From the NCBI GenBank assembly GCA_021324755.1, contig JAJPIL010000022.1:109277-173276 (forward strand): a stretch of 64,000 nucleotides of DNA, written 5' to 3'. Source of the stretch: Pseudomonadota bacterium. Its GTDB lineage: Bacteria > Desulfobacterota > Binatia > Binatales > Binataceae. Under the pieces are notes generated by a model. The model saw only the letters and a list, made by a program, of their open reading frames with translations. It searched no databases and was not told where the DNA came from. The translations under genes were made by a program, and so were the position numbers. Position 1 is the first letter of the stretch. Each line of letters starts with the position of its first letter. Below, in pieces: positions 1 to 61,015 of the stretch.

Positions 1-545
1 CCCATTTGGCGCCCACCGACGCGGGATACGTGATGTTGCTAACCAAACTTGTCCATCAGCGGTCGCTGGGCTTCTTGGCGTTCGTCGTAGCCACGACAAT
101 CATCGTCGCCGTGACCAGCGCAGCGCTATGGCGTGGCCTTTATTCGGTTTCGACCCTTGGAATTGGCCTTTTGGCTCTGACCGGCGTGGGTCTTTGGCTT
201 GACGTGCTCAAGCCTGCTCACGCGTATCTGTATTCGCTCAAATCCTTTGTCGCCGAAATCAGTAGGATTGCCGACAGCTCGCAGGTGTATGTCCTGGGCG
301 GAGAGAACTACCAGGTCTCGTTTTACTGGGGTGGACCGGTTCCCGTTTTCCGGCCGGAGTCGTTGCGAGAGTTCGCTGGGGGTAAATTTTACATTGTCGG
401 CTTGAGCAGGGAGTTGTCACGGCTTGCTCTTCCCGAGCACTACCGGCTTGTCCTTCGCCAGAGCTCGGGAGTATATCGCGCAGGCAGTGACGAGATTGTG
501 TTGGCGCAAGTAGTCCCCGTGGGCGAGCGCACCACAGCGCCCTGA
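1..545 (+). CDS. C-terminal part of a membrane glycosyltransferase (GT39/ArnT-like), truncated by the window edge
   Basis: Frame is open to the left edge. TM helices are followed by a soluble C-terminal region (VYVLGGENYQVSFYWGGPVPVF) of the type that ends ArnT/PMT-like proteins. Confidence 0.55.
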   Translation, partial: HLAPTDAGYVMLLTKLVHQRSLGFLAFVVATTIIVAVTSAALWRGLYSVSTLGIGLLALTGVGLWLDVLKPAHAYLYSLKSFVAEISRIADSSQVYVLGGENYQVSFYWGGPVPVFRPESLREFAGGKFYIVGLSRELSRLALPEHYRLVLRQSSGVYRAGSDEIVLAQVVPVGERTTAP

Positions 546-9666: not shown

Positions 9667-10602
9667 ATGGGGCTACGGGCGAAACGTTACTTGCATGACG
9701 CGATAAGGCGCTACGATCTGCGAGGTTGGCTGACGCGCGCTCTCACTAGGGCTTGTATCCGTTTTCTTACCCGCCCTGTCAAACAGTATCAGCTTAAGAT
9801 TCCTGTCGATACGGCTCGCCTTAAGCGATTTATCGCGAAGGGAGATGTAGTGCTGGTCGAGGGTAACGAGCGAATCAGTGAAATTATCAAGTACTTGACC
9901 CAAAGCTCGTGGTCGCATGCCGCGCTTTACGTTGGCGATGAACCTTTAAAGCGCTTGCCCGCTCTTAAGGATTCGCTTATCGAGCGTTTTGGGGAGGAGT
10001 CTAAGTACTTGCTCGTTGAGGCGCTACCAGACCAAGGGGTGGTGCTCTCTCCGCTGGTAAAGTATAGCTCGTTTAATATTCGAGTGTGTCGACCTTACAA
10101 TTTGACCCGCCGCGATTTAGACCGGCTCTTGACGATGGCGCTTGCTCAAGTTGGACATCAGTACGACCTCAAAAACGTTTTGGATCTGGCCCGTTACTTT
10201 TTCCCCTTTACTCTTTTGCCTAGGCGTTGGCAGCGCCAAGTTTTCAACTTCGGCAGCGGCGAGCCGACGCGCGTAATCTGCTCCAGTATGATCGCGTCTT
10301 TGTTTCATGAGATAAAATTTCCGATCATTCCCCACATCGAGTTGGTAAACGATAGCGCACCCGAAGAGCCACGGTTTTTGGCGGTGCTGAGGGAGTGGCT
10401 TGGTTGGCGTCCTGCCGGGCGGTTAGAGGTATTCAAGCCCACGCCGTCAACACTTATTATTCCGCGCGACTTTGATTTGTCTCCTTATTTTGAGGTCGTA
10501 AAGTTCAACATTATCGAGGAGCTCAAGTTCGACTATCGCCGCATCGCGTGGGTCGACGAGCTTGGGCAGTCGCATGAGACTAAGCTAAACGGTTCTCGTT
10601 AG
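9667..10602 (+). CDS. YiiX/YebB-like permuted NlpC/P60-type cysteine hydrolase
   Basis: GDVVLVEGNERISEIIKYLTQSSWSHAALYVGDE (His block) and VICSSMIASLFHEI (Cys block), permuted papain-like order. Confidence 0.8.
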   Translation: MGLRAKRYLHDAIRRYDLRGWLTRALTRACIRFLTRPVKQYQLKIPVDTARLKRFIAKGDVVLVEGNERISEIIKYLTQSSWSHAALYVGDEPLKRLPALKDSLIERFGEESKYLLVEALPDQGVVLSPLVKYSSFNIRVCRPYNLTRRDLDRLLTMALAQVGHQYDLKNVLDLARYFFPFTLLPRRWQRQVFNFGSGEPTRVICSSMIASLFHEIKFPIIPHIELVNDSAPEEPRFLAVLREWLGWRPAGRLEVFKPTPSTLIIPRDFDLSPYFEVVKFNIIEELKFDYRRIAWVDELGQSHETKLNGSR

Positions 10603-10617
10603 CCGGTGATTGCGTAG

Positions 10618-10670
10618 CCCCAAAAGGTTTGCCAAGCTAGTTGTTGTTAGCTGCCTTAACCTTTTTGGGG
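10618..10670. other. Strong two-part stem-loop between the hydrolase and the next small ORF
   Basis: CCCCAAAAGGTT ... AACCTTTTTGGGG outer arms (one extra T) and AGCTA-gttgttgt-TAGCT inner arms. Confidence 0.55.
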
Positions 10671-10677
10671 ATACACG

Positions 10678-10965
10678 TTGCGACAGAGCATGAGGGACAA
10701 CAATGGCTCACTGGAGCGAGAGGCTTTGGAGCGCCGTATCGCGAAAATACTCCATCGTCACTGCAATTTTGGCTGGGCGCACTACTACATCCCGAGCGAA
10801 AAGTTTCCAAGCCTAATTGAGGAGTTAGTAGAACTGCTCGCCCCGCAGGGCGAGGTTTGCCATGAGGAAGTAGTGCGGGCGCTGCTCAAACTAAAGCACG
10901 TGGGGTCGGAGCAGGAGCGAGCCGAAGCTCTGCAACGTGAATTCGTGATTTGCAAAAGGAAATAA
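10678..10965 (+). CDS. Hypothetical small helical protein (~91-95 aa)
   Basis: Complete ORF with coding-like composition (LEREALERRIAKILHRHCNFGWAHYYIPSEKFPSLIEELVELL); TTG at 10678 or ATG at 10690. Confidence 0.5.
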   Translation: MRQSMRDNNGSLEREALERRIAKILHRHCNFGWAHYYIPSEKFPSLIEELVELLAPQGEVCHEEVVRALLKLKHVGSEQERAEALQREFVICKRK

Positions 10966-11042
10966 GGCGGGCGCAGTTCACCAAGGTTTGTCTTCTCACT
11001 GTAACGATAATACCGGTTGAGTTATCAATTAGCCTTATCCTT

Positions 11043-13853
11043 TCAGCACAGAGGGACTTTTCTCGCCGTAAGTTCGTGTGCTTCGGCTAGGGCGACTCTG
11101 CCGGCGTTTGTGGCAAAGCGTTCGTGCAGAGGACTGATCATCGTCCCAACCGCCACCATTCTGAACGCCATACGGGCAAGGTTGGTAAACGGCGCCGGCA
11201 CCAGCTCAGCCGCGTCTTTGAACTCCGCCAGCGTCTGGTTATCCCAGCCGAACAAGCCGGTCAAAAACATGTAAATCGGTAGCGAGCCGAATAGACATAT
11301 AGCGACCAGCGCCCATGAACCGATCGGATGATCGGCGCCGCTAGGCAGTAGACGAACGATCGTCGCCAGAATCGAGTAGCTTGCTATCCCAGAAAGCAAC
11401 GGATTGACCAGGGTTTGCCACACGCTGAGCGCCGGAGTGATTACCCTAGACACCATCAATGTCCATCCGACAACCGCCTTTAGCAACGAGGAGAGGCCAA
11501 AGGCATAGAACAAGCCCGGAAAGCCAAAATGCTTCATGAGCGCCCAGGCGAGTACGATTCGCGAACCGTGTTCCAGAGCGGCCGCCCATGTAAATAGCCC
11601 GGTGTTTCCTACGCCTTGGAAAACCTGATCAGGGAGCCGACCCGCGAAATCGATCGCCCGCCAGAGATGCGCAAGAAATAGCACCTGGGCGACGCGAGAA
11701 AACTGCGCCGGCAACAAGCCGTGAACCATCACAGCGCTGAATGCGATAAAAGCACCGCCCAACATCGTCGTTACCATCGCTCCCCATCGCAGCCCTTGGT
11801 CCAGGTAGTAGCGAGTTAGCCCGAGCATACCGTGCGAGTAGCTCTCCGAGATGCTGGGCATCAGGGTGATGAATATGTACGTGCCGGTTTCGATATATGC
11901 GAAGGTAAGCATGTAGCATATGACCCACAGCTCATTCAGTTCCAGAAAGTCCGGCAACGCCAGTACCATCAAAAGCGGTATCAACGCCCAACTAAGCGCG
12001 GTTATCAGCGAACCCAAAGTCAGCTTAAAGCCGTAGATAAGCGAACGCCTGACCGTGTCGCGGTCGAAATGGGCTAGAAATAGGGTGCTCAGCTTAAAGC
12101 CCACCGCTCGGTAAAACAGTGCGCATAAAGCAGCGATCGACAAGTTCGCGATCACGCCTCCGATCGCGGCACCGAACGCCGCTCCCATTCCTTCGCCGTA
12201 GATGGGATGGGCTAGTCCCCATTTGCGTCCCAAAAGGCTGCATACCATCGAAGGTACGGGCGCAAGCACGTAGGTCAAAACGATAAGAAACTGGGAGTAG
12301 TCGAATCGTTGAAGCGCACGAAAAAAGTTGAAGAAAATCGACACAAACCCCGGAAAAAGAGTATAGGCGTGCAAAACTACAAGCCACGCTAAAAACGCCA
12401 TTGAGGTGCGCGGCAACCAGACGGCTGCCCCCAGGGCGAGAGCTGTGACCGCGAGACTTCCGGTCAAAGCATGGAACCAGACAAAAAACTGGGCGTACGC
12501 GATCGCTCGGGCAGGGTCGGTCACGCGAAACTCGGCAAAATACTTCACCATCGCCTGTCCGGTCCCCAGGTCAAGGAGCGCAAAGAAGAAAGGCATAAAT
12601 TGGCTCACTGCCGCAGCTGCACCACGCGCTTCCACGAAGGGATTTATGAAGTTGCGCTCGATGTAAAAAGTCGTGGCAAAGTTAAAAGGGATCATTACAA
12701 AAAGCGCGAGCAGGTAATTGTAGAGAAATCCGCTAAGTGGACGGTGAAAACCAATCAGTTCCCATCTGGGATCGCTTCGGTCGCCTCGTAATTTGTTCGA
12801 AACGGCATATCTAAAGGCGTTATTAGCGGACGATTCGTCTAGCTGCGGGTCTGATTCGAGCGAACGCTTAGGTGCCTGGCGGCCAGACGCTACCGGTAGA
12901 CGAACTTCGAGCAACTTTTCGGGATGGTTTAAACTTGTCCGGCGGACGATCACGAACGCGACCGACAAAAGGGCGCATATCGTAATTAGGAATATTGCGA
13001 GCACTACGACGTCGCCGCGCTTAGGCACGGGCGAGGCCACCCACTGGCTGAAGTTCGAAACCTTTAGCCGCGCAGCGTCGCGACTCAAGAAATAAAGAAG
13101 CCAGTTGAAGTACGGCCAGCGCTGCAATTCGTAGTTCTCGCCCGTCTCGTTAAGGCTCAATAACTCAAGTAGACCGACCGATTGGGTGGTCTGGGTAGCT
13201 GGTTGGAGCCAAGTCGTCAGAACGTAGATGCGGCCTTTGGCGATTTCGAGCCGAAGCAGAATTGGTGTGCCTGGGCTTACGCGATCGCTGCGAGCTGTGG
13301 CAACTAGAACCTCGCCCCTTGTGCGCGTGCTTGAAGAAAGCCGGACCACAGTCCGCTGATAAACTCTTCCCGCAGAGCGCCAATTGGCCTGTGAGGCAAG
13401 AGCGCTCGTGGGCGGGCCCACGTACTGGAGTATCGCAGCTATCTCTTCCAGTCGCTGCGCGCGCCCTTTTCCCCCTCCGACGTTCACTTGCGCGCTTTGA
13501 GTGAGAGCGTTGTCCGTCAGGAAAGCTACTGAAGCGGACGGAGTGTGCTCGCCTAAAATCAGCAACATTCCAGTCCCCTGTTCGACCTGCGTCTTCAACA
13601 GCTCGAGTTCGCGCCCTGGTGCAGGCAGCGCTTCTTGAACCACGACGGTTTGGGCCTGGCTAAGTGTGCTTGTGCGCTCGGCTGAAGGATCGAGCAAAAG
13701 GCGGTCGAGTACGGACTTCTCGCTTCCCAGGTAGTAAAAACGAAATTTCTCGGTAGATGCCCAAGTTGGAGAACAAGTTGGCGCCAAGATTGACAGGAGC
13801 CATACCAACGTTAGTTGGAGAAAGGCACAAATCGCTCTGGGTTTAGTTAACAT
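11043..13853 (-). CDS. Fusion: extracytoplasmic GATase-like domain + MOP-superfamily polysaccharide flippase
   Basis: Likely start at internal ATG (13853) with signal peptide MLTKPRAICAFLQLTLVWLLSILAP; ~270-aa soluble domain (VVVQEALPAPGRELELLKTQVEQGTGMLLILGEHT), TM anchor, then many-TM Wzx/MATE-like region (FNFATTFYIERNFINPFVEARG...). Confidence 0.75.
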   Translation of the reverse strand: MLTKPRAICAFLQLTLVWLLSILAPTCSPTWASTEKFRFYYLGSEKSVLDRLLLDPSAERTSTLSQAQTVVVQEALPAPGRELELLKTQVEQGTGMLLILGEHTPSASVAFLTDNALTQSAQVNVGGGKGRAQRLEEIAAILQYVGPPTSALASQANWRSAGRVYQRTVVRLSSSTRTRGEVLVATARSDRVSPGTPILLRLEIAKGRIYVLTTWLQPATQTTQSVGLLELLSLNETGENYELQRWPYFNWLLYFLSRDAARLKVSNFSQWVASPVPKRGDVVVLAIFLITICALLSVAFVIVRRTSLNHPEKLLEVRLPVASGRQAPKRSLESDPQLDESSANNAFRYAVSNKLRGDRSDPRWELIGFHRPLSGFLYNYLLALFVMIPFNFATTFYIERNFINPFVEARGAAAAVSQFMPFFFALLDLGTGQAMVKYFAEFRVTDPARAIAYAQFFVWFHALTGSLAVTALALGAAVWLPRTSMAFLAWLVVLHAYTLFPGFVSIFFNFFRALQRFDYSQFLIVLTYVLAPVPSMVCSLLGRKWGLAHPIYGEGMGAAFGAAIGGVIANLSIAALCALFYRAVGFKLSTLFLAHFDRDTVRRSLIYGFKLTLGSLITALSWALIPLLMVLALPDFLELNELWVICYMLTFAYIETGTYIFITLMPSISESYSHGMLGLTRYYLDQGLRWGAMVTTMLGGAFIAFSAVMVHGLLPAQFSRVAQVLFLAHLWRAIDFAGRLPDQVFQGVGNTGLFTWAAALEHGSRIVLAWALMKHFGFPGLFYAFGLSSLLKAVVGWTLMVSRVITPALSVWQTLVNPLLSGIASYSILATIVRLLPSGADHPIGSWALVAICLFGSLPIYMFLTGLFGWDNQTLAEFKDAAELVPAPFTNLARMAFRMVAVGTMISPLHERFATNAGRVALAEAHELTARKVPLC

Positions 13854-14473
13854 AGTGATAGGTACTTCTCGGAGAAAGCTCGGTCTGGGACATTGTCTAC
13901 CCTCCGCGACCGAATGTAGCGAACATAGCATGTCCATGCGCCTTGGGAGCCGAGGGATCCGGCTTGCCGACCAATTTGACAGTTGATAGCGTGGCTGCCA
14001 ACTCTTACCGTGCATGCCGTCGCTTTGCGCGACATTTTACTTGGTTTTGAGCAAGCATTGTCCTACCGAGCACAAATCCGGGCGGGTATCAATCGTTTAA
14101 GGACGTCCCCGATGCGGAAAAGAGGTTAGCTGTGGAGCGGCGAGTCTGTAAGCGCGGTTCAAAAACCGGTTAAACGGCGAAAAAGTGGGGACTGATTGCC
14201 TGAACGTTCACGACGTTGTCGTTGGGTTAGAACCTGCTTGCGGATGATATAAGGCCGCCTTTTGCAATCTCGTTCAATAGTAACTGTGGCGCATTTTTAA
14301 GGGCCAAAGTAAAAACCGATATGCACGCGCAGGTCGATACTATCAGGCGAAGTAGTGCGTCTTGCAAGGCGCGTTGCAAGAATTGAAATAGTCCGGTTGG
14401 AGGTGAGTTAGCCGGCTGCGAGCTCGTTTGAGGGTGTACATCTTTAAGTAAGAAAAGATAGGAGGTCGTTACA

Positions 14474-50362: not shown

Positions 50363-52852
50363 TCAAGGAACGAAAAGGGCCGCGTTAGCGGAAGCTCCTT
50401 CCAAACTCAATCCTCCAGCTATAAGTACAGACGAGCTACCGAGCGGCGTCGTGGTGAGCCCCGCAACGGCTTGAAATAGGTTTCCAACAAAGCTGAACTT
50501 TTGCGTGCTGGGGTTAAAAATTTCGGCGTCGGTAAGTGGCGAACAAGCTGAGCCTGAGCTGGTCGGCGTGCACTGTTCGCCGCCTACAATCAACACCGTT
50601 CCGTTGGAAAGCAATGAGGCGCTCGCGCTATCGCGCGCCTGGGCCATCGAACCAGTGGTTAACGAGAACGTACCCGTTGCGGGATTGAAGATCTCAGCGC
50701 TGCTAAGCGACGTGCATCCACCTGAGGTGCAATCGCGGCCTCCTGCTATAAGCACCGTTCCGTCGTTGAGCAGGGTAGCGGTATGGGCGATTCGCGGGCT
50801 GTTCATCGGGCTTGCCGTGGGACTGAAAGTCCGGTTCGCCGGGTTGAAGAGTTCGGCTGCGTTTAGAGATACGCACCCCGATACGGTACATTCTTCCCCA
50901 CCCGCGATAAGGACCGTATTGTTTTGCAGGACGGTCGTGGTGAAAGTGTCCCGCGGAGTCAGCATCTGGCCGATCTGCACGAACGTCGCTTGCGCGGGCT
51001 GGTAGACTTCAGCCTGGGCTAGAGATACCTGATTCGATCCCACGCCGCCCACGATAAGCACCGTTCCGTCCGGGAGTGGAGCGGCGCCATGCGCAATACG
51101 CGCAACCGTCATCGGCCCGCTGGTAGCGCTGAATAGCCCCTGGGTCGGGTTGTAGAGTTCAGCACTGGCTAGGGCGCTGCCGTCTGCGGCTACCCCTCCA
51201 GCTATGAGCACTTGCCCATTGCCAAGCATCGTCGCCGTGTGAAACGCGCGCGACGCTGTCATCGTGCCTGTTGTGGGCGAAAACAAGCCCGTGCTCGGGT
51301 TGAAGAGCTCCGCGCTTGCAAGAGAAATGGCGCCATTGGCTCCCCCGGCCAAAAGTACCTGTCCGTTGGTCAGCAATGTGGCGGTGTGGGCGTAACGAAT
51401 ACTGACCATTGTGCGGAAAATCGTGAAGTTGGTGCTTTGCGGGTTATAAAGCTCAGCGCTGGCCAACGCCGTCCCGGTGCTGTCTTCTCCGCCTACGACC
51501 AGGACGCTGCCATCGGGCAGCGTAGCTGCTACCGCGGAGTCGCGCGCCTGAGTAAGTCCGTTCGAAAGCGAGCTAAAGCTCCCGGTCGAAGGATTGTAGA
51601 GCTCAGCGCTCGAAAGAGCACCGGTGGTATTGACCCCACCCACGATTAAAACTTCGCCACTTTGCAATAGCGAGGCGGTGTGAAGCTCTCGCGGCGTGGT
51701 CATTGAGCCGGTAGCCGTAAAGGCGTTGTTCGCCGAATTGAATAATTCAGCACTAGCTAGCACCGGTGTGGGGCATGCGCTCGAACTGGTGTTCGGCGGG
51801 CAGGGTGCTCCGCCGGCGATCAGAACTTGGCCGTCCGGCAACAGGGTTGCAGTGTGAAACTCGCGCGGCGAGGTCATATTTCCGGTCGAGGAAAAGCTTT
51901 GGCTGGATGGGTTATAAAGTTCGCTGCTCGACAAAACTTGCGGCGTGCATGCTCCGCCCTGTGGATTCGGTATGCAGTTTTCGCCGCCGGCGATCAGAAC
52001 CTGGCCGTCCGGCAACAGGGTTGCAGTGTGAAACTCGCGCGGCGAAGTCATCGTGGAACTCAAAGGGCTGAAACTACCCGTGGCGGGATTGTAAATCTCT
52101 GCGCTGGCTAAGGTTACGCCCTGAGAGTTCTGCCCGCCGGTTATGAGAACCGTTCCGTTTGCAAGCAATGTTGCAGTGTGAAAAGCACGCGCTGTGTTAA
52201 GCGATCCTGTGGCGACGAAGGCGGACTGTGTGGGTTCGAAAAGCTCGGCGGAGTTGAGATAAACGCAACCAGACGAACCAGGAGCGCCGCAGCTAAGTCC
52301 TCCCACAATCAATATGTTCCCGTTGGGAAGCAGCGTTGCAGTGGAACCGGCTCGTGAAGCGGTCATCTGACCTGCCGACCTGAAATTGGAGATAAGCGGA
52401 TCAAAATATTCGGCCGTCGAAAGGGAGTTCAGCACGCTGTTAAAACCGCCGGCGATGAAGACTCGACCATTGCTCATCGGCACCGCCATCGCAAGAATTC
52501 GCGCGTTGGCCATGCCGTCGCCCAAAGCCAGAAAACCGGTGGAGACAGGCGTTGGCGAAGAGCTAGGTGAAGGTGAGGCCGATGGCGTAGGGGTCGGCGA
52601 AGGAGTTGCAGAAGCCGAACTAGTCGGGCTGGGGGAAGATACCCCGGAATTTGGCGGCGAGGAGGTCGGTGCGCTCACAGGGGAGGATGATGCTCCTGAC
52701 GCTCCACTGCCACCTCCACCTCCGCCACCCATGCATCCAATCCCCAGCGCCACGAGGAACAGCGCCACAAGCAGTTCCCCTCGGAAAACCCGCTTCGCGC
52801 TCCGCGACGCCGACGCTTCGTGCTCCCGTGGCAGCATTCGACTCGTTGTCAC
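50363..52852 (-). CDS. Secreted kelch-repeat protein with ~14 repeats (two predicted 7-blade propellers)
   Basis: Repeats of HTATLLxxGxVLIAGGxxxxxxLxSAELYNPxTGxF; N-terminal hydrophobic segment, Cys, Gly7 run, then Ser/Pro/Thr linker. Confidence 0.88.
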   Translation of the reverse strand: MTTSRMLPREHEASASRSAKRVFRGELLVALFLVALGIGCMGGGGGGGSGASGASSSPVSAPTSSPPNSGVSSPSPTSSASATPSPTPTPSASPSPSSSPTPVSTGFLALGDGMANARILAMAVPMSNGRVFIAGGFNSVLNSLSTAEYFDPLISNFRSAGQMTASRAGSTATLLPNGNILIVGGLSCGAPGSSGCVYLNSAELFEPTQSAFVATGSLNTARAFHTATLLANGTVLITGGQNSQGVTLASAEIYNPATGSFSPLSSTMTSPREFHTATLLPDGQVLIAGGENCIPNPQGGACTPQVLSSSELYNPSSQSFSSTGNMTSPREFHTATLLPDGQVLIAGGAPCPPNTSSSACPTPVLASAELFNSANNAFTATGSMTTPRELHTASLLQSGEVLIVGGVNTTGALSSAELYNPSTGSFSSLSNGLTQARDSAVAATLPDGSVLVVGGEDSTGTALASAELYNPQSTNFTIFRTMVSIRYAHTATLLTNGQVLLAGGANGAISLASAELFNPSTGLFSPTTGTMTASRAFHTATMLGNGQVLIAGGVAADGSALASAELYNPTQGLFSATSGPMTVARIAHGAAPLPDGTVLIVGGVGSNQVSLAQAEVYQPAQATFVQIGQMLTPRDTFTTTVLQNNTVLIAGGEECTVSGCVSLNAAELFNPANRTFSPTASPMNSPRIAHTATLLNDGTVLIAGGRDCTSGGCTSLSSAEIFNPATGTFSLTTGSMAQARDSASASLLSNGTVLIVGGEQCTPTSSGSACSPLTDAEIFNPSTQKFSFVGNLFQAVAGLTTTPLGSSSVLIAGGLSLEGASANAALFVP
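51810..52060 (-). repeat. Two nearly identical kelch DNA repeats
   Basis: CCGGCGATCAGAAC(T/C)TGGCCGTCCGGCAACAGGGTTGCAGTGTGAAACTCGCGCGGCGA(G/A)GTCAT occurs twice, ~180 bp apart. Confidence 0.9.
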
Positions 52853-59040: not shown

Positions 59041-59853
59041 ATGCCAGACCCGAGACTTGTCAAGGCCGTTCTAAGTCTTGTCGAGGAGCTGACGCCCAGA
59101 CCGCGAAACGTGCTCGACATAAGCTGCAAACGAGGGGAGCTCCTGTTGGAATTGGCACGCCGCGGATTTCGGGTGCGGGGAACCAACTTTGAGCGCGAAC
59201 CGGCACCTCCGTCGGAGATCCAGGTCGATTTCGACGTCGATCTCATGAAGGGGCTGCCGTATCCCGATGAAAGCTTTGACCTGGTGTGTTTAATCGAGGT
59301 GATCGAACACTTGGAAAACCACCGGGTGGCGGTCTCGGAGATGGCGCGCGTCACGCGACCGGGCGGCGCGATTATCATCACGACGCCCAATATCATGCGC
59401 CTTAATTCGCGGCTTGCATTTCTACTATCTGGCTTTCACAAGACAAAGCGGCGGTTGACGCCGCTTGATACACCTATCGAGCAATCCCACCGCTATCACA
59501 ATTATCCGATCAGCTTTCCCCTGCTTTACTATCTGTTGTTAAGCCACGGCCTTCGAGTCGAACGCCTGGGTCATGGCCGGGTCAAGGCGATCGCGTACGT
59601 GCTTTATCCGCTGCTTTATCCTTTGGTAGCAGCGAATACTAGGTTTCGTTTGCTCAGGCGTGAACGCGATCCTAGCCAGCGCGAACGCAACCGCGAGCTA
59701 ATGGAATGGATGCTGAATCGCCGACTGCTGATGGAAGATAACCTTATCGTTCTCGCTCGCAAGGTCGCTAAGCCTTCGGGCAGCGAACATGACCTTGCGA
59801 CGCGCGATCCATCGTTATCTGCGTCCCAGCTCGGAGCGCGAGATGCTGTTTAG
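59041..59853 (+). CDS. Class I SAM-dependent methyltransferase
   Basis: VLDISCKRGELLLELARRGFRVRGTN, SFDLVCLIEVIEHLENHRVAVSEMARVTRPGGAIIITTPNI. Confidence 0.9.
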   Translation: MPDPRLVKAVLSLVEELTPRPRNVLDISCKRGELLLELARRGFRVRGTNFEREPAPPSEIQVDFDVDLMKGLPYPDESFDLVCLIEVIEHLENHRVAVSEMARVTRPGGAIIITTPNIMRLNSRLAFLLSGFHKTKRRLTPLDTPIEQSHRYHNYPISFPLLYYLLLSHGLRVERLGHGRVKAIAYVLYPLLYPLVAANTRFRLLRRERDPSQRERNRELMEWMLNRRLLMEDNLIVLARKVAKPSGSEHDLATRDPSLSASQLGARDAV

Positions 59854-61015
59854 CCTGCGCGGCGAGCACTACCGGCTGCTTGGATCGGCTTTGGTGTTGG
59901 CGTTCGTCTGTGTACAGTGCCTGGCCGGATGTGGAGAGCGGCCCAGTGAGGTTGCAGAAAATTACTTGTCGAACCTGAAAACCGGTCGCTATAGCGCCTG
60001 CTATCGAATGTTGTCGCGCGAGGATCGTCGGGCGCAAAGCTTTGAGGAATTTGTCAACAACATTCCGCTAGCCCCCGATGTCGACCGCGATTGGTTCGAG
60101 GCGGTGGAAGGAAGAACGGAGTACGTATTGGCGAGCGACGCCCGCGTCCATGGCTACCAGGCGGTGCTGCCGGTCAAGGTAAGCTCGGTCGATCTCAGTC
60201 TTTGGGAGCGCGCTCTCGAGGCTGTATACGGTCCGGAGGACGCGGTGAAGGAGGCTCGAAAATCGCTCGAGCGTAGGGAGTATCCCCATCTGACTTATCA
60301 GGACCAATTTATAATGCTCAAGGAATTCCATCGCTGGAGGATATTTGCGAATCTCGCTTCGTACGAAGAAATTTTTGAACTTCACCGCAGAGCTTTAGCC
60401 TTTTACCACCAACATGAACTCGACCGCGCGATCGGCAACTATAAGGTTTTGCTTAAAACCCTCGAGCATAAACGCGGCACCGGTAGTATGGGGGTCGCCT
60501 ATCGGTATGCTCGTGAGCTGGCGTTGGTCGAGGTGGCGCGGGCACGTCTTTTTGAGGCTCAGCAGTATCTGCGTAAGATAGAGCTTACGCGCGTTCGGCG
60601 AGATATGGCTGCTGACGGCGAACCAGGTATTTTCGGCGATGTCACCAATCTCGGCGACCAGTGGGTCGACGAAGTGCGAATAACCGTTTCTTACTATCTA
60701 AGCCCGGACCAAAAGCCCGTCTATATCGAAAATCACAGTATAGTTGCGAATCCAATCGAGTTCTCAGGCTTCGCTACGCCACCGCGGCCTCTCAAGCCGG
60801 GCGAAACCAGACATTTCGGCGTCCATCTGAGCGCACCCGTCTGGGTTCAAGAAAGAGCTGAGCCTCGCGTGAAAGTGAGCAGCCTCATTTTCACCCCTTG
60901 GTCGGCACAGACTTTAAAAAACGCGCTCTTCGTTCCACAACTGGCTGATAAGCTTTGGCGGGACCTCTTTGTTGGAAACCAGCTTGCGCCAGCTCGGATG
61001 TCCCGAAGCCCTTGA
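59843..61015 (+). CDS. Putative lipoprotein of unknown function, overlapping the methyltransferase gene
   Basis: MLFSLRGEHYRLLGSALVLAFVCVQCLAGC lipobox; NTF2/DUF4878-like N-terminal region and FxLYD-like C-terminal region. Alternative start at 59789. Confidence 0.7.
   Translation: MLFSLRGEHYRLLGSALVLAFVCVQCLAGCGERPSEVAENYLSNLKTGRYSACYRMLSREDRRAQSFEEFVNNIPLAPDVDRDWFEAVEGRTEYVLASDARVHGYQAVLPVKVSSVDLSLWERALEAVYGPEDAVKEARKSLERREYPHLTYQDQFIMLKEFHRWRIFANLASYEEIFELHRRALAFYHQHELDRAIGNYKVLLKTLEHKRGTGSMGVAYRYARELALVEVARARLFEAQQYLRKIELTRVRRDMAADGEPGIFGDVTNLGDQWVDEVRITVSYYLSPDQKPVYIENHSIVANPIEFSGFATPPRPLKPGETRHFGVHLSAPVWVQERAEPRVKVSSLIFTPWSAQTLKNALFVPQLADKLWRDLFVGNQLAPARMSRSP

Follow-up and report, generated by a model that had tools for sequence, protein, structure and literature searches.

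The locus studied here raises the question of whether a membrane flippase can carry a periplasmic domain of its own within a single chain. The gene lies in a 64,000-nucleotide stretch of DNA (hereafter, the window) from a bacterium of the family Binataceae, and an earlier note, made from the sequence alone, had read its product as an extracytoplasmic GATase-like domain fused to a polysaccharide flippase of the MOP type.

Gene model and domain layout

The features of the gene are presented in Table 1. An alternative in-frame ATG at 14015 adds 54 residues upstream; the ATG at 13853 opens straight onto the signal peptide, as in the relatives, and fits those proteins better. Hydropathy averaged over the family upheld the proposed order of signal peptide, soluble domain, TM anchor, linker and polytopic part, and the topology predicted from it places the N-terminal domain outside the cytoplasm, as the earlier note had it. 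The architecture thus stood, and two of the proposed sizes were revised: the linker measures about 55 residues rather than about 70, and the range of 12-14 TM segments is best read as about 14.

Table 1. Features of the fusion gene and its common neighbours (window positions).
Feature	Position	Strand	Description
Whole gene, periplasmic-domain / MOP flippase fusion	11043..13853	(-)	936 aa + stop; single uninterrupted ORF
Signal peptide, residues 1-33	13755..13853	(-)	Hydropathy and sequence; h-region 13-25; AxA-like end in relatives
Extracytoplasmic N-terminal domain, residues 34-276	13026..13754	(-)	Probable alpha/beta (flavodoxin/GATase-like?) fold; 0 Cys; AF2 model
TM anchor, residues 280-304	12942..13016	(-)	Ends in RR (positive-inside); hydropathy
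Variable linker, residues 305-360	12774..12941	(-)	Presumably cytoplasmic; fast-evolving, alignment gaps
MOP-superfamily transporter, residues 361-870	11244..12773	(-)	~14 TM; hhalign, Foldseek
Conserved C-terminal cytoplasmic tail, residues 871-936	11046..11243	(-)	Alignment
Neighbour string			DUF1573 protein, C92-family peptidase, small conserved ORF, nitroreductase, rhodanese, cobalamin adenosyltransferase, MBL hydrolase, LigA

In the family-averaged profile, the anchor appears at residues 285-300, with a peak of 2.61 at residue 294, and is followed by RR. The linker is charged, with 13 K+R in the stretch between TM segments, and the roughly 14 TM segments of the transporter extend from ~377 to ~867 in the averaged hydropathy. 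A soluble tail of ~65 residues closes the protein after the last of them. Given that the N-terminal domain is predicted to be periplasmic and is followed by a single TM segment, the transporter would begin on the cytoplasmic side, as is the case for MOP proteins. A transporter of 12-14 TM segments with cytoplasmic N- and C-termini, about 14 being predicted, agrees with the hydropathy, the positive-inside signals and the helices of the model.

Reality and distribution of the fusion

The fusion protein was found in 8 of the 41 genomes, and in 5 of the 17 genera, of one bacterial family (the window's own genome included), with the whole architecture retained at 44-55% identity across copies. Six of the seven further genomes hold a full-length relative as a single ORF on one contig. 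In the seventh (G036), contig C371 ends within the gene, and the N-terminal piece is found at one end of C304, where it adjoins the expected neighbour gene, so that the two pieces are most simply one gene. Conservation over several genera, which the earlier note had asked for as support, is therefore borne out by a single ORF in five of them. That an assembly or gene-calling artefact fused two genes, a danger named in the same note and suggested only by the draft state of the sources, which are in multiple contigs and in at least one case derived from a metagenome, has practically no probability and is refuted by multi-genome conservation and synteny, with the same single ORF in six other assemblies and a seventh having it split at contig ends.

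The public genome collection yielded a single relative, in a MAG from palsa peat labelled 'Deltaproteobacteria'. No true relative of the whole profile or of either half was found in 297 genomes of the phylum or in 148 genomes of the class, nor in plasmids (scanned with tblastn) or viral contigs; the ten weak matches to either half that were inspected (E 0.001-1) are chance similarities to unrelated or out-of-frame ORFs. In 143 class genomes there is likewise no relative of the N-terminal domain, whether standalone or on another protein, which speaks against the other objection that had been foreseen, namely that this domain is a standard flippase extension. The carriers are several related uncultured soil-type bacteria, and the combination is lineage-restricted. 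No published description of the fusion was found in the full-text literature searched, which is weak evidence, since coverage of that literature is partial. The domain combination is thus real, lies in a known transporter superfamily and is apparently undescribed.

The transporter half

Eight family members were compared by hhalign with a Wzx-type set composed of 29 PF01943-matching ORFs from related genomes, which yielded a probability of 99.1 and E=4e-18 over 510 columns. The controls were negative: the reversed profile gave E 0.29, the best block-shuffled profile E 4e-4, and NuoN failed. Individually, no member of the fusion family has a Pfam match even at E<10, and NCBIfam returned nothing but two spurious matches. 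With the full-length AF2 model as a query in Foldseek, the top 50 matches are all MOP proteins (MurJ, WzxE, MATE), MurJ being first; this model and that of the N-terminal domain were both built on 7-sequence alignments and are of low confidence (pLDDT 48 and 54, respectively). The PF01943 profile match and the Foldseek matches together indicate that the transporter half is a member of the MOP superfamily, PST/Wzx-like, and forms a divergent branch of about 14 TM segments. The MOP/Wzx-type transporter of the earlier note is hence confirmed by profile comparison and, structurally, by Foldseek.

Two more specific identities were considered. MurJ is ruled out, as the match to its profile (PF03023) is insignificant (hhalign E 0.053 over 34 columns) despite a working Wzx-MurJ control (5.6e-52). 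An identity as PelG is unsupported: no Pfam match to PelG exists, and the PelG profile (PF16933) gave hhalign E 0.42 in a comparison of low power, its profile having 4 members and the Wzx-PelG comparison failing too.

Among known systems, the Wzx/PST flippases (PF01943, COG2244-like) share the MOP fold, the 510-column profile match and a polytopic part that starts in the cytoplasm. They have 12 TM segments, however, against about 14 in the fusion, which also differs in having no HMMER Pfam match, in bearing an N-terminal periplasmic domain and in lying outside a glycan gene cluster. The 14 TM segments of the MOP flippases TacF and MurJ agree with the predicted number; the best Foldseek matches are MurJ structures. 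A study of TacF places PST proteins of 14 TM segments near MurJ and proposes that arginines in TM1 and TM8 (R15 and R269, at the lateral entrance) bind the diphosphate (PMC13385700). In the family alignment of the fusion, an invariant GFHRPLSGF, with an invariant R371, is found at the entry of TM1. An invariant K610 lies in TM7 and an invariant Glu655 in TM8 (~640-663), the helix register being approximate in both cases, yet TM8 has no invariant Arg or Lys. The fusion further departs from TacF and MurJ in its insignificant MurJ profile match and its extra domain, and its host has a MurJ of its own.

The N-terminal domain

No meaningful sequence match to the N-terminal domain was obtained in Pfam, NCBIfam or the PDB, for Pfam and the PDB even at E<10. 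When the domain was modelled alone (AF2, pLDDT 54), its first ~80 residues reached a pLDDT of ~70-85 and formed a beta-alpha-beta-beta-alpha-beta arrangement, and the later part a beta hairpin and a terminal helix. The modelled order of strands and helices is probably that expected of a flavodoxin/GATase-like fold. Foldseek matches to the PDB are weak, the best being GH42 beta-galactosidases at E 0.03-0.1 (best E 0.033, probability 0.85). Enzymes of the GH42 type account for most of the first fourteen PDB matches, as counted at the level of whole targets, and the middle (trimerisation) domain of GH42 beta-galactosidases is GATase-like. A search against viral models gave noise.

The domain was also compared with DUF4350, a GATase-like family, by hhalign with DUF4350-type sequences from the class. 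The alignment is local, with residues 47-93 of the domain in the register that would be expected, and the same score or better is reached by 21 of 150 shuffles. TM-anchored periplasmic GATase-like domains of the DUF4350 / GldG type share the expected location and a similar helix-strand motif (E..L...V..G.GMLLILG), although the similarity is insignificant against shuffles; proteins of this type are not known to have a MOP transporter. A GATase-like domain is a plausible lead from the models, and the GATase-like/DUF4159 assignment of the earlier note is not established, given the lack of a sequence match in the databases searched, a DUF4350 score no better than shuffles, and weak GH42 model matches. 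A catalytic glutamine amidotransferase (i.e., one with a Cys nucleophile acting with His and Glu) is excluded, since the domain has no Cys, and no invariant His, in eight sequences, one of them partial.

MviN is a homologue of MurJ. The mycobacterial protein serves peptidoglycan synthesis and carries a pseudokinase (residues 710-942) as well as carbohydrate-binding domains (PMC12599244). It is the nearest precedent, being a MOP-type flippase whose single polypeptide also includes domains for regulation and carbohydrate binding. In contrast, the extra domain of the fusion is N-terminal, secreted and unrelated.

Genomic context and inheritance

In four genera (g1, g2, g15 and g17), the fusion gene occupies a shared locus, on the opposite strand to the common neighbours listed in Table 1, whose names come partly from reading of the sequences and not all of which are present or called in every copy. 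Eleven other loci keep this string, in whole or in part, without the fusion gene. The gene has hence either been inserted into a stable locus or been lost from it, and is no member of an operon there; an operon link to the C92 peptidase and nitroreductase neighbours is ruled out, since the locus is unchanged without the flippase. In almost all of the family members compared, the C92 peptidase is accompanied by a conserved ORF (53-70% identity), which in the window is 95 aa long, lies at 10678-10965 (+) and has no Pfam match.

The absence of an adjacent glycosyltransferase cluster, already remarked on in the earlier note, was confirmed: no glycosyltransferase or polymerase cluster lies beside the gene in the window, and none is evident near the other copies, whose neighbours are partly annotated. 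The left edge of the window (6-545, continuing as L181:10927-12822) holds an ORF of 631 aa that matches no Pfam family at E 0.001 and whose C-terminal sequence suggests a putative membrane glycosyltransferase of the ArnT/PMT type. It is ~10 kb from the flippase gene, and Nuo-like genes stand at the corresponding place in several family members. Elsewhere in the window are a 408-aa ORF with no Pfam match (59789-61015, +), which overlaps the last part of the methyltransferase gene at 59041-59853, and an 829-aa Kelch-repeat protein adjoining mutS (50363-52852, -).

Identity in the MOP domain tracks that of LigA among syntenic copies, and the fusion is mostly vertically inherited at one locus. The non-syntenic copy of genome G019 has 51-55% MOP-domain identity against 67-78% for LigA; given this divergence, far above that predicted by LigA, it points to horizontal transfer or an older paralogue. 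That copy is intact and lies at another locus (G019:C236, L031, 9741-12581). Genome G036 holds a decayed second copy (G036:C514, L032, ~10484-11739), in which residues ~28-175 are joined to ~656-917 with frame breaks and the middle missing, and which is 31-56% identical to the intact copies.

Selection and rival readings of function

For three close pairs, dN/dS is 0.04-0.08 in the transporter, 0.09-0.22 in the N-terminal domain and 0.016-0.17 in the C-terminal tail; it is 0.11-0.31 in the linker (close pairs) and ~0.55-0.64 in the signal peptide (two pairs). Both folded halves are, by these estimates, under purifying selection, with the transporter more constrained.

The best explanation, to which we give a probability of about one half, is that the gene encodes a glycolipid flippase of the PST/Wzx-like kind whose own chain includes a periplasmic domain for regulation or docking. 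Counted against it are the lack of an adjacent glycan cluster and of an invariant basic residue in TM8, the low-confidence models, and the insignificant MurJ and PelG matches.

A possible, though tentative, alternative is that the N-terminal domain docks rather than senses, recruiting a periplasmic polymerase, ligase or glycan-binding protein as a hand-over station without gating. The predicted placement of the domain on the exit side and its lack of a Cys nucleophile or invariant His agree with this, as does the fact that it evolves 2-3.5 times faster than the transporter, as might suit a partner-adapted binding surface; the locus, however, offers no conserved partner gene, the C92 peptidase, nitroreductase, rhodanese and ATR being the same without the fusion. 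It is unlikely that the transporter half works in the manner of MATE proteins and exports a small molecule or lipid instead of flipping a glycolipid, with the N-terminal domain as a substrate trap or adaptor. Although MATE structures are among the Foldseek matches and adjacent glycan genes are absent, the significant match among the profiles compared (Wzx, MurJ and PelG) is to Wzx-type PF01943 members, and about 14 TM segments are predicted against the 12 of MATE. Very unlikely is a loss of transport that would leave a degenerate MOP scaffold acting as a membrane-bound sensor: divergence beyond the reach of Pfam at E<10, a patchy distribution and the one decayed copy would suit it, but the MOP half is the more constrained of the two, the reverse of what a sensor scaffold would lead one to expect.

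Proposed mechanism and implications

Under the preferred reading, the signal peptide would export the N-terminal domain, and the anchor helix would bring the chain back to the cytoplasm, so that the MOP part has the cytoplasmic N-terminus predicted for it and found in known MOP flippases. That part would flip an isoprenoid-linked glycan, presumably synthesised by enzymes whose genes lie in other parts of the genome, across the inner membrane. On the exit side, the N-terminal domain would probably bind either the product of flipping or a partner in the periplasm, and this binding would probably regulate flipping or couple it to the next step. The fusion protein would be an accessory flippase, since the same genome also codes for one MurJ and two ordinary Wzx-type (PF01943) proteins.

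A stronger version, which we regard as rather doubtful, is a class of self-regulated glycolipid flippases, with flipping under the control of the chain's own periplasmic alpha/beta domain, which would read either the glycan after export or its acceptor; if true, this would be exit-side feedback on a Wzx-type transporter. The family adds a divergent MOP branch, missed by the Pfam and NCBIfam models, in an uncultured lineage with little-known envelope glycans. With an exit-side domain attached covalently, such a flippase would allow two open questions to be tested directly, namely the regulation of Wzx/PST flippases and the passing on of the lipid-linked sugar once flipped.
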